25,029 nucleotides of DNA from a virus. Under the pieces are notes generated by a model. The model searched no databases and was not told where the DNA came from. It saw only the letters and a program-made list of their open reading frames with translations. Made by a program: the position numbers and the translations under genes. The DNA is taken from positions 1-25,029 of the IMG/VR virus record IMGVR_UViG_3300009008_000229; one strand, written 5' to 3'. Shown here one piece after another: positions 13,779 to 20,980 of the stretch; within the stretch, counting starts at the first letter, position 1; each line of letters opens with the position of its first letter.

Positions 13779-14249
13779 ATGAGAAGAAACTCAAGTTCGA
13801 TGCGGATTCCCGCACTGATCGCGATAGCGTTTGTGATGATGATCCTGGCCGGACCGAGCTCCGCTTGCTACGGCCGGCAATCCCTCGAGGAGGCCGTTCC
13901 CCTCGACGAAGTCCTGAACTTCGAGACCTGCGCCGTCTCCCAAGCGCCGGCGTTGGGCCTCGAAGTGATCGAATACGAACGGGCGGCCTACATCGACGTG
14001 GAGATCAACCAGAACTCGAACGAGCTTTCCAGTGCCCTGGATTGGAGCAGAGAAGAAGCGAACCTGAATTCCGAAGACCAGACGATAATGGATGAAATGC
14101 AAATGGTCATGGAGGCCGGGTCCACTGCTTTCTTATTCCCCGATATCGGAGCAACCGAGAGAGCTCAGCGATACTACGATTTTCATCCGCTCGAGGCAGC
14201 ATTCTCCAGGTTGCGAAATCAGATCTTCGATCCTGTCGGGACAGGGTAA
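13779..14249 (+). CDS. Exported protein of unknown function, likely an inserted accessory gene
   Basis: The first 30 residues read as a signal peptide: basic start (MRRNSSSMR), hydrophobic core (IPALIAIAFVMMILAG) and a likely cleavage site after PSSA, before CYG. The motif before the Cys lacks the Leu of a normal lipobox, so a secreted soluble protein is more likely than a lipoprotein. The mature part (about 126 residues) is acidic and has two cysteines (CYG and ETC), which could form a disulfide in the periplasm. AAGGAG lies 8 bases before ATG 13779. No capsid or tail family is recognised, and a secretion signal is unusual between capsid and gp35-like genes. The flanking duplicated leaders suggest that it entered as a cassette. 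Confidence 0.65.
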   Translation: MRRNSSSMRIPALIAIAFVMMILAGPSSACYGRQSLEEAVPLDEVLNFETCAVSQAPALGLEVIEYERAAYIDVEINQNSNELSSALDWSREEANLNSEDQTIMDEMQMVMEAGSTAFLFPDIGATERAQRYYDFHPLEAAFSRLRNQIFDPVGTG

Positions 14250-18098: not shown

Positions 18099-18434
18099 AT
18101 GGCGAACGAATTACAGGCCAAGATCGAGGCTTGGAAGAAGGAACACGGCGAGCTCTCGGAGCTCATTGTGAGCTGGGACGTGGAAGGGGCTGAGCAGAGC
18201 CGCTCCTTCATCGTGCACAAGCCGAAGCCGGCGAGCTTCGACATCCTGATGCAGGGGATCATGCAGAAGCCCACGAAGGCAATGAAGAACTTCGTGATCT
18301 CGGTACTCCTGCATCCGAGCCAGGAGGAGTTCCTCTCCCTGGCGGAGAAGTATCCCGGCGTGCTCATGAACCTGGGGAACTCGATCCTCGAGGAGTTCGG
18401 CATCAAAGCCGACGTAGTTAAAAAAAAGCTCTAG
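18099..18434 (+). CDS. Tail assembly chaperone, unshifted product (111 aa)
   Basis: The short product is helical (LQAKIEAWKKEHGELSELIV, then PTKAMKNFVISVLLHPSQEE) and ends VVKKKL at a stop directly after a run of eight A. It lies between tube and tape measure, the fixed position of tail assembly chaperones, which bind the tape-measure protein and recruit tube subunits but are not in the finished virion. Most ribosomes are expected to stop here; a minority shift to make the longer product (see 18428-18619). Confidence 0.8.
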   Translation: MANELQAKIEAWKKEHGELSELIVSWDVEGAEQSRSFIVHKPKPASFDILMQGIMQKPTKAMKNFVISVLLHPSQEEFLSLAEKYPGVLMNLGNSILEEFGIKADVVKKKL

Positions 18435-18466: not shown

Positions 18467-18619
18467 GTCCTCATCAGGCACTACTTCGGCATCGATGCAC
18501 GGAAATTCAACATGGACGAGTTCATAGAGCACTACTCAGAAGCCTGGTACATGGTGGAGTTGGAGCGGGATATTCTGGCCAGCGCGATCGGGAAGGCTTT
18601 TGGCGTGAAAGATCAGTGA
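18428..18619 (+). CDS. Tail assembly chaperone, -1 frameshift extension (63 aa)
   Basis: After a one-base slip back at A-AAA-AAG, translation continues from base 18428 for 63 codons to TGA 18617-18619, giving a 173-residue fusion. The extension (ALEIRSSPLREGLVLIRHYF, then FNMDEFIEHYSEAWYMVE and LERDILASAIGKAFGVKDQ) has normal amphipathic helices and no start codon of its own near its 5' end. The other possible frame is also open but yields Arg- and His-rich nonsense-like sequence. As in phage lambda G/GT, the extension would recruit tube subunits. Its last 7 bases overlap the end of the reverse-strand gene. Confidence 0.8.
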   Translation, partial: ALEIRSSPLREGLVLIRHYFGIDARKFNMDEFIEHYSEAWYMVELERDILASAIGKAFGVKDQ

Positions 18620-18837
18620 TTTGCAGATGAAAGTTTGGAGGTTTTCAGGGCTTTTTCACGGGCATCTTGAGCCTGCCAGCCCTTCATGAAGGATTCTTTC
18701 CAGACGTGAGCGACAATGCGGAAACAGGCATAGGTGAGTTTAATAAGCTTGGGACCGAAATAGAAAAGAGCCCAGCAGAGCCCGATGATAGCGCCAATGC
18801 CGAAGAAGAAAAAGACGGGACCGAGAGCTTCAAACAT
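18613..18837 (-). CDS. Reverse-strand moron: small membrane protein, candidate superinfection-exclusion factor
   Basis: This is the only reverse-strand gene seen. ATG (18837-18835) has AGGAGG 9 bases upstream. The 74-residue product has one transmembrane segment (about 8-28, VFFFFGIGAIIGLCWALFYF) and a basic, polar C-terminal part (VWKESFMKGWQAQDAREKAL). It has its own promoter (18870-18898). Single genes with their own promoter, inserted between chaperone and tape measure, are classic morons; HK97 gp15, a small membrane superinfection-exclusion protein, is, as I recall, inserted at the same place. Function by that analogy is inference. No Rho-independent terminator is seen after its stop, where it meets the chaperone gene tail to tail. 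Confidence 0.72.
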   Translation of the reverse strand: MFEALGPVFFFFGIGAIIGLCWALFYFGPKLIKLTYACFRIVAHVWKESFMKGWQAQDAREKALKTSKLSSANH

Positions 18838-18869
18838 GGCAGCACACCTCCTGTTAGGAAACTAAGTTC

Positions 18870-18898
18870 AGTATAGGGCAACAAGGACCTCCAGTCAA
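18870..18898 (-). promoter_or_regulatory. Sigma70 promoter of the reverse-strand gene
   Basis: On the reverse strand, TTGACT (18898-18893) and TATACT (18875-18870) are separated by exactly 17 bases; each hexamer matches five of six consensus bases. Transcription would start near 18863 and give a leader of about 25 bases with AGGAGG. The -35 box ends one base before the tape-measure ATG, and the forward AAGGA (18883-18887) of the tape-measure gene lies in its spacer. Confidence 0.75.
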
Positions 18899-20980
18899 AT
18901 GGACTCAATCTTCGAACTGGCCGTCATAATCAAGGCCATTGATCAGATCTCCGGGCCGATAAAGAGCGCTCGCAAGGTGCTCGGAGATTTCGATAAATGG
19001 GCCGGCAAGGCTGACGGCATGGTTCGATTCGGAGAACGGGCCGGCGTAGCCAGTGCCTTCATAGGAGCATCGGCAGCCAAGATGCGCGGAGCCCTGGGGG
19101 AAATCCTGGGGCCGCTCACCGAGGTCGAAGACTCCATGGCCAAGGTGCAAAGCGTCATAACACCGATGAGCGGAGACATGGCCGCCTCGATGGCGAACAT
19201 GAAAGCGGCGGCCCTGGACTGGAGCAAGGCCCACACCGACAGCGCCACGGAGTTTCTCGATACTTCCTACATGATGCTCTCCGCTGGACTCAACGAGGCA
19301 GCCGCTGTTGAAGCGACACGTACAGCGATGGCCGTAGCCACGGCCACGATGGGCGATAACGTCGAAGCGGCCGACCTTATGGCGCGCGTTTACAACAACC
19401 TGGGTGATCAGGGTGCCGATGTAGCAGGGGAGATGGGCCGGCTGGGCGATATCCTCACCAAGACTCAGCAGACCTTCCAGATTGCAAACCTCAACCAGCT
19501 CGCCACGGGCCTTCAGTACGGAATCCCAGTGGCCAAGCAGTTCGGGATCTCCGTTGAGCAGGTAAACGCCTCTGTCGGTATGCTCAATACTCTCGGCCTG
19601 CAGGGATCGATGGCGGGCACGGCCTTTGCCGCCACTATGCGCAATATGATCAAGGCCAGCAACGAGCTCGGCTTCGAGATGGCCAGGACTGCCTCCGGAG
19701 GCGTGGACTTCGTCGGGACCGTGGAAAACATCCGGGCCGTATACGGCGATTTCTCCAAGATGACCGATCGACAGAAAACCGCTTTCCAGAAGGCATTTGG
19801 AGACGAAGGGCTCCGGGCCATCTCTGTGCTGCTCGGAAAAACCGGAGAGCTGCGATCGGCCCTGGATACAGTGACTGGATCGACCGGAGCAACGAAAGCC
19901 GCACTGGATATCATGGAGAGTACGGCAAGTGCGAATTTCCAGACTCTCCACAACAACCTGTACGCCGTGAAGGTGACGATCGGCGAGCACCTTCTTCCTC
20001 TGATCAATATGGGCATTCCGATTGTTCAAAAGCTCATCACGAACATGGGACGGTTCGCCGAGGCTCACCCGTGGCTGATGAAGATCAGCGTGAGCCTCCT
20101 GGCCATCATGGCGGTGCTCCTGAGCATTATTGCTCCTGTCCTCGCAGTAGCTGCCGGTTTTATGTTGATGGGCGGCTATGGACTCAAGGCGATTCTGGGT
20201 GTCGTAAGCGCTCTGGAGTGGCTCCTGGGGATGATGACGTCCGGCAGTATCCAGGGCGCAGCCAAATCGATCGGAGTGGGATTCAGATGGGGCTTCGGCC
20301 TGGCCAGGACAGCCGTGCTTCGCAGTGTCACGGCTCTTCGAGCCTTCTCTCTCGGTGTCCTCCAATTAGCGCGCCAGGCGCTCATTGCGCTGATCGGCGT
20401 GCTGCCCGGCCTCATCGCTTCGGTATGGGCCTTCACGGCCGCTCTGCTTGCCAATCCGATCACATGGGTTGTGCTGGCTGTTGTGGGCCTTGGAGCCGGG
20501 CTCTGGGCTCTGATCAAGCACTGGGACACTGTGAAGGTCGCCTTCATGCAGGCCGTCGACTGGATCATGGGATTTGGGAAACAGATGTATGCAGCCGGAG
20601 CGGCCCTGTTCGCTGCCTTCACGGAAGGCCTGAAAAGCCTGGCCTCCAAACCCATTGAGTTCGTGAAGAATACCCTGGGCAAGATCCGGGCAATGCTTCC
20701 GTTCTCCGATGCCAAGATGGGGCCGCTGGCGGATCTGAGCAGTTCCGGGGAGGCGTTCAACGAGACACTGAGCCGGTCGATCGAGAAGTCGAGCCCCCGG
20801 CTGATCTCTACAGTGAAAGCCGAGCTCGGCGAACTCCTCCCTCAGCCAGCTCCGGCAGCCGCGCCGGCAGCTGAAGCAGGCGGCGGCGAGAGGGTGATCA
20901 ATATCAATATCAACGGTGCAGCTCCGAATATGATCGAGCAGATCGCGGCAGCCGTTAAACTTGCCGTGGAGGCCGCCTGA
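18899..20980 (+). CDS. Tail tape measure protein (TP901 family)
   Basis: The 693-residue protein has the TP901-type core in its first half: SMAKVQSVITPMSGD, FLDTSYMMLSAGLNEAAAVE, MARVYNNLGDQG, QLATGLQYGIPVAKQFGISV and AFGDEGLRAISVLLGK. Hydrophobic segments follow at about 395-435 and 495-545, which may insert into the host membrane during DNA entry. At about 1.5 angstrom per residue the tail would be near 100 nm. The ribosome site (AAGGA, 11 bases before the ATG) is weak and lies within the reverse promoter, suggesting the moron changed the leader. The stop overlaps the next start (TGATG). Confidence 0.9.
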   Translation: MDSIFELAVIIKAIDQISGPIKSARKVLGDFDKWAGKADGMVRFGERAGVASAFIGASAAKMRGALGEILGPLTEVEDSMAKVQSVITPMSGDMAASMANMKAAALDWSKAHTDSATEFLDTSYMMLSAGLNEAAAVEATRTAMAVATATMGDNVEAADLMARVYNNLGDQGADVAGEMGRLGDILTKTQQTFQIANLNQLATGLQYGIPVAKQFGISVEQVNASVGMLNTLGLQGSMAGTAFAATMRNMIKASNELGFEMARTASGGVDFVGTVENIRAVYGDFSKMTDRQKTAFQKAFGDEGLRAISVLLGKTGELRSALDTVTGSTGATKAALDIMESTASANFQTLHNNLYAVKVTIGEHLLPLINMGIPIVQKLITNMGRFAEAHPWLMKISVSLLAIMAVLLSIIAPVLAVAAGFMLMGGYGLKAILGVVSALEWLLGMMTSGSIQGAAKSIGVGFRWGFGLARTAVLRSVTALRAFSLGVLQLARQALIALIGVLPGLIASVWAFTAALLANPITWVVLAVVGLGAGLWALIKHWDTVKVAFMQAVDWIMGFGKQMYAAGAALFAAFTEGLKSLASKPIEFVKNTLGKIRAMLPFSDAKMGPLADLSSSGEAFNETLSRSIEKSSPRLISTVKAELGELLPQPAPAAAPAAEAGGGERVINININGAAPNMIEQIAAAVKLAVEAA

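Follow-up and report, generated by a model that had tools for sequence, protein, structure and literature searches.

A conserved antisense gene between the tail chaperone and tape-measure genes of Mu-like phages encodes a candidate superinfection-exclusion membrane protein

The window analyzed here, the whole 25,029-nucleotide stretch of the virus record IMGVR_UViG_3300009008_000229, carries a reverse-strand gene for a 74-residue protein with one predicted transmembrane (TM) segment between the genes for the tail assembly chaperone and the tail tape-measure protein (TMP). As judged from sequence comparison, this gene is an old, conserved resident of the chaperone/TMP slot across divergent phages. 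Its product may be a prophage-expressed membrane moron of Mu-like phages that excludes superinfecting relatives, probably at TMP-dependent DNA entry, a reading for and against which we see the chances as about even.

The gene and its signals

The window represents a contig of a Mu-like contractile-tail phage with a MuB-like ATPase gene (1656-2582) and late genes for a Mu-like gpT head protein, a DUF2586 sheath, a tube, a DUF6848 chaperone (18099..18434, + strand) and a TMP with a PhageMin_Tail match (18899..20980, + strand). The placement between tail chaperone and tape measure, proposed in the initial annotation, was borne out by the ORFs and profile matches of both neighbors. No repressor was visible in the window, which is a truncated contig. 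The chaperone ORF contains an A-rich slippery stretch at about 18420-18428, and a −1 frameshift extension could be read from the sequence to a stop codon at 18617-18619; this extension and the reverse gene are convergent and meet almost exactly.

The reverse ORF (18613..18837, − strand) starts with ATG, encodes the pattern FFFFGIG...GLxW...FGP...W..SFxxGW and was assigned by family alignment and dN/dS. It is preceded by a Shine-Dalgarno sequence AGGAGG (18847..18852, − strand) 9 nt 5′ of the ATG and by a putative promoter consisting of a −10 hexamer TATACT (18870..18875, − strand), a spacer of 17 nt and a −35 hexamer TTGACT (18893..18898, − strand). The −35 box touches the TMP start codon of the opposite strand (18899) and overlaps the TMP leader. 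Thus, the ORF, Shine-Dalgarno sequence, TTGACT-17-TATACT promoter and one-TM protein described initially are all present. The promoter matches the consensus at 10 of 12 positions; a local scan found one such site in 3 kb at a chance expectation of 0.9 per 3 kb, so that its score is no better than chance and the promoter assignment needs comparative support. No terminator was found 3′ of the reverse gene. A terminator-like site at 18783 was dismissed, as it falls within the reverse ORF.

The Kyte–Doolittle maximum of 2.21 for the 74-residue protein (2.2-2.9 across the family) supports one TM segment, and AlphaFold2 predicted a single continuous helix from residue 5 to 72 with a pLDDT of 87. Hydrophobic residues near positions 5-27 followed by K/R suggest an N-out, C-in topology. 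A single small membrane protein, as expected for superinfection exclusion, is thereby predicted. Size and hydrophobicity would also fit a small hydrophobic toxin or holin-like protein, but a constitutive-type promoter would then kill the lysogenic host, the gene lies antisense to the lytic program, and long-term chromosomal retention of the gene alone, with no visible partner, also speaks against this highly improbable assignment.

The reverse frame was compared with that of L005, a relative with 89% nucleotide identity to the window over the late region that carries the same 74-codon reverse ORF. The first, second, and third codon positions had 5, 1, and 14 substitutions, respectively, and dN/dS was 0.165 for the reverse frame versus 1.24 for the overlapping forward ORF (18667-18876, + strand), for which a coding function was consequently rejected. 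With values of 0.06-0.33 in other pairs of the family, the codon-level conservation anticipated by the initial annotation was seen, and the reverse frame is, on these ratios, under purifying selection. Both promoter hexamers are identical in L005, and the segment from the promoter to the TMP gene is unchanged, whereas the 5′ UTR has an indel. Among the head genes, the window has approximately 0.5 kb that is extra relative to L005 (13690-14293); this segment, which encodes a secreted or lipoprotein-like protein of 156 amino acids without a Pfam match (13779-14249, + strand), is a recent moron.

The reverse transcript might alternatively serve mainly as antisense RNA that dampens the chaperone or TMP gene in the lysogen, with the protein being secondary. 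The missing terminator and the abutment of the −35 box on the TMP start codon, by which both transcription units must interfere, favor such a role; protein-level conservation with low dN/dS, the sharing of the slot by unrelated proteins rather than by an RNA, and stand-alone copies that have no late operon to regulate (see below) make it very unlikely.

Searches against Pfam, PHROG, NCBIfam, PADLOC, and PDB gave no family match for the small protein (best weak hits with E values of 0.03-0.9), so that the family is unannotated, as the initial annotation had suggested; nor did any known exclusion or defense family match in PADLOC, PHROGs, Pfam, and NCBIfam. In phage records, tblastn retrieved no relatives of the small protein, and no annotated reverse gene was present in the slot in four characterized phages inspected near the TMP gene (ZY1, M16-3, SFCi1, and Mu). 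Homology to HK97 gp15 was rejected (hhalign probability 0.2%), as was that to known families by the profile searches.

Occurrence in relatives

Relatives among phages and prophages were gathered by TMP-guided searches; a pattern scan of genome contigs with a three-sequence alignment had yielded nothing, and the TMP alignment was used instead. The family pattern FFFFGIG..LGL.W...FGP...W..AF.EGW recurs in reverse ORFs before the TMP gene, each of which is antisense and starts some 34-86 nt ahead of the TMP match. About a dozen divergent Mu-like phages and prophages have a homologous reverse gene in this slot, with slot and orientation shared by the window, L005, L023, L024, L027, L028, L034-L036, L038-L040, L044, L079, L080, and L102. 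The position in relatives, which had been singled out for checking, is therefore the same throughout this set. The homologues in the slot share 17-38% identity, which rules out a recent one-off insertion.

A reverse promoter with 9-12 of 12 consensus matches lies at the same place in 12 of the 13 canonical-slot loci tested, which are not all independent; the exception is L028 (8/12), and antisense windows at other gene starts of the window phage gave a mean of about 7.1/12. The elements read TTGACA-17-TAAAAT in L034/L036, TTGACA-17-TATAAT in L039, and TTGACA-17-TATACT in L080, with weaker promoters in L027, L028, L040, and L079; the counterparts of the window's −10 box are TAAAAT, TATAGT, TATAAT, and TATACT. 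Since it is kept in L005 and relatives have promoters at the same place, the window promoter is more than a chance match. A promoter-like site of its own at a fixed place, as expected of a moron, thus appears to accompany the gene in relatives.

The host is a member of the Bacillota wherever it is known for carriers of the family. Among 398 genomes of the phylum to which the Clostridiaceae genome G001 belongs, HMM searches gave 12 with the family, two of them as weak hits; a profile search of 189 Myxococcota genomes gave none. Carriers cluster on the TMP tree: 4 changes were counted, against 9.1 for shuffled data, and none of 500 shuffles came as low.

In L025/L081 and L074 the small gene lies downstream of the TMP gene, so that adjacency to the TMP gene in the canonical arrangement is not obligatory. 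L074 and L081 (genomes G013 and G003) represent a reduced Mu-like element with a near-identical gene set in both genomes, comprising a MuB-like ATPase, chaperone, TMP, and a protease-related piece, with the small gene approximately 1.3 kb downstream of the TMP gene. Activator-like and HTH genes, identified by eye, come next after the small gene.

Other relatives have no room for the gene: 0-16 nt separate the chaperone end from the TMP gene in L037, L041, L043, L045, and L049 and 32 nt in L046, compared with a distance of about 250-280 nt where the gene is present. The clean junction sought in relatives without the gene was thus observed, the chaperone directly adjoining the TMP gene, and the gene is, like a moron, present in some relatives and cleanly absent from others. 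In the Myxococcota-type clade L026, L029, and L042 and in the spirochaete-associated L050, the same slot holds unrelated one-TM reverse ORFs, which are short and less certain; no significant promoter lay within 100 nt of the start in L050. The ORF of the Myxococcales prophage L029 (5885-5965, − strand) comprises 26 codons (MDIFFIVMFIFGVIGGVDGLIRWSRR) and starts 8 nt after the −10 box of a TTGACA-17-TACGAT element, and its mRNA is possibly leaderless.

Over 12 kb, the phage/prophage sequences L102 and L024 share about 99% identity, interrupted at TMP codons ~67-409, where a clean domain swap has left 28% identity and both versions match PhageMin_Tail. Replacement pressure on the TMP is evident from the exchange of a domain within so similar a pair. 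Between the two, the small protein keeps 96% identity; as it did not change together with the TMP cassette, allele-specific recognition of the TMP is not supported in this pair. L024 and L102 make the question of the TMP as target directly testable.

Copies outside intact phages

In genome G378 (L072/L082), approximately 0.7 kb of prophage is left between host genes: a 53-bp end of the sheath gene and a chaperone gene frameshifted by single-base indels remain, the TMP gene is gone, and the small gene is intact with one in-frame 9-bp deletion. A first reading of L073 as a further case of selective retention was dropped; its chaperone piece is unbroken too, so that the support is weak.

Stand-alone chromosomal copies occur in G194, G171, and G316 (L075, L076, L077, and L078 are listed as stand-alone). 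The G316 copy L088 (contig C64, 1531-1710, − strand) has a CRISPR array on one side and, on the other, a WYL regulator followed by csa1, cas4, cas2, and cas1. In G171, a family member with its own Shine-Dalgarno sequence (L085, contig C34, 11864-12031, − strand) fills exactly the 185 bp between two CRISPR repeats, in the place of a 32-bp spacer. Either capture of an oversized segment or faulty assembly could account for it. A moron-carrying remnant in G060 lies approximately 1.2 kb from a CRISPR array on the same contig, two spacers of which (L084:18857-18978) match an L036-type Mu-like phage with 94 and 97% identity. In total, three of six non-phage copies are near CRISPR, a striking proportion, but from a small post-hoc sample.

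Intact stand-alone copies, some of them next to CRISPR loci, would be in keeping with a lysogenic-conversion membrane protein that confers another host benefit, such as in envelope stress, transport, or exclusion of unrelated phages or plasmids. We consider this unlikely, given the dominant association of the family with one phage slot and TMP type and the inconsistent host neighborhood.

Discussion

Superinfection exclusion is the best-supported reading of the gene, but unproven. In the lysogen, we infer, a sigma70-type promoter placed against the TMP start codon would drive the gene independently of the late operon. The product would be a small protein anchored in the inner membrane by a single TM helix at its N-terminus, with a charged helical tail that probably faces the cytoplasm. 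It would block DNA entry of superinfecting relatives by interference with the incoming TMP or the host membrane site that the TMP uses, a mechanism proposed for HK97 gp15. With the gene in antisense orientation, strong late transcription at induction would tend to silence it. Exclusion at the stage of DNA entry, described for HK97 gp15 and other membrane exclusion proteins (PMC10883804), would suit a prophage-expressed membrane protein whose gene is tied to that of the TMP.

An antisense, self-promoted moron can indeed be prophage-expressed and act through the TMP, as the precedent of Tab (Tail assembly blocker) from the Mu-like phage JBD26 indicates: Tab is encoded on the minus strand as a moron under its own promoter, is produced by the prophage, and acts upon the TMP (PMC10884400). 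The window gene lies between genes for two proteins that assemble onto one another and might accordingly encode a Tab-like inhibitor, which would prevent tail formation by binding the invading phage's TMP inside the cell. This is rather improbable, as the strong TM helix would hold the protein in the membrane, whereas tails assemble in the cytosol, and Tab needs an anti-Tab to protect its own phage, whereas no extra such ORF was seen in the slot.

More tentatively, and with clearly less confidence than in exclusion itself, the chaperone/TMP junction of Mu-like phages may be a dedicated antisense exclusion slot, with a promoter against the TMP start and interchangeable small one-TM proteins in different lineages (the family described here in Bacillota phages, unrelated proteins down to 26 amino acids in the Myxococcota type); bacteria may have co-opted the gene as stand-alone immunity, sometimes within CRISPR loci.

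The proteins described here form a so far unannotated family of prophage membrane proteins, encoded at a fixed site that can be predicted. A reverse ORF with a promoter just before the TMP gene provides a rule for finding such genes that reaches proteins too short for normal annotation. If exclusion holds true, TMP-linked exclusion would reach beyond E. coli siphoviruses to Mu-like phages with contractile tails in Bacillota.

Comparison with known systems

The late region of phage Mu has the same order as the window (sheath, tube, chaperone, and TMP genes), but unlike the window no annotated reverse gene between gp41 and gp42. DNA injection is blocked by P22 SieA, TP-J34 Ltp, and Tuc2009 Sie2009, which are encoded by prophages and located in the membrane or at the surface; tape-measure changes overcome the TP-J34 block (PMC10883804). 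They are likened to the window protein by description and differ from it in protein, position, and host. JBD26 Tab shares with the window gene the minus-strand location inside the late operon of a Mu-like phage; it differs in that it lies between terminase genes, inhibits tail assembly and is paired with anti-Tab.

The closest parallel in position is HK97 gp15, likewise a small predicted inner-membrane protein, whose exclusion is escaped by hybrids with the HK022 tail tube and TMP genes (PMC10883804). The statement in the initial annotation that gp15 occupies the same interval was correct with respect to position, as its gene lies between a −1 frameshift chaperone and the TMP gene (NC_002167); the likeness does not extend to strand or sequence. 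The gp15 gene shares the + strand with the late genes and precedes an annotated terminator, whereas the window gene is antisense, and the two proteins are unrelated in sequence. HK97 is an E. coli siphovirus; the window family belongs to Mu-like phages with contractile tails, whose hosts, as far as known, are Bacillota. Prophage morons of the exclusion type are already known; what is new here is a gene that is antisense and unrelated to gp15.
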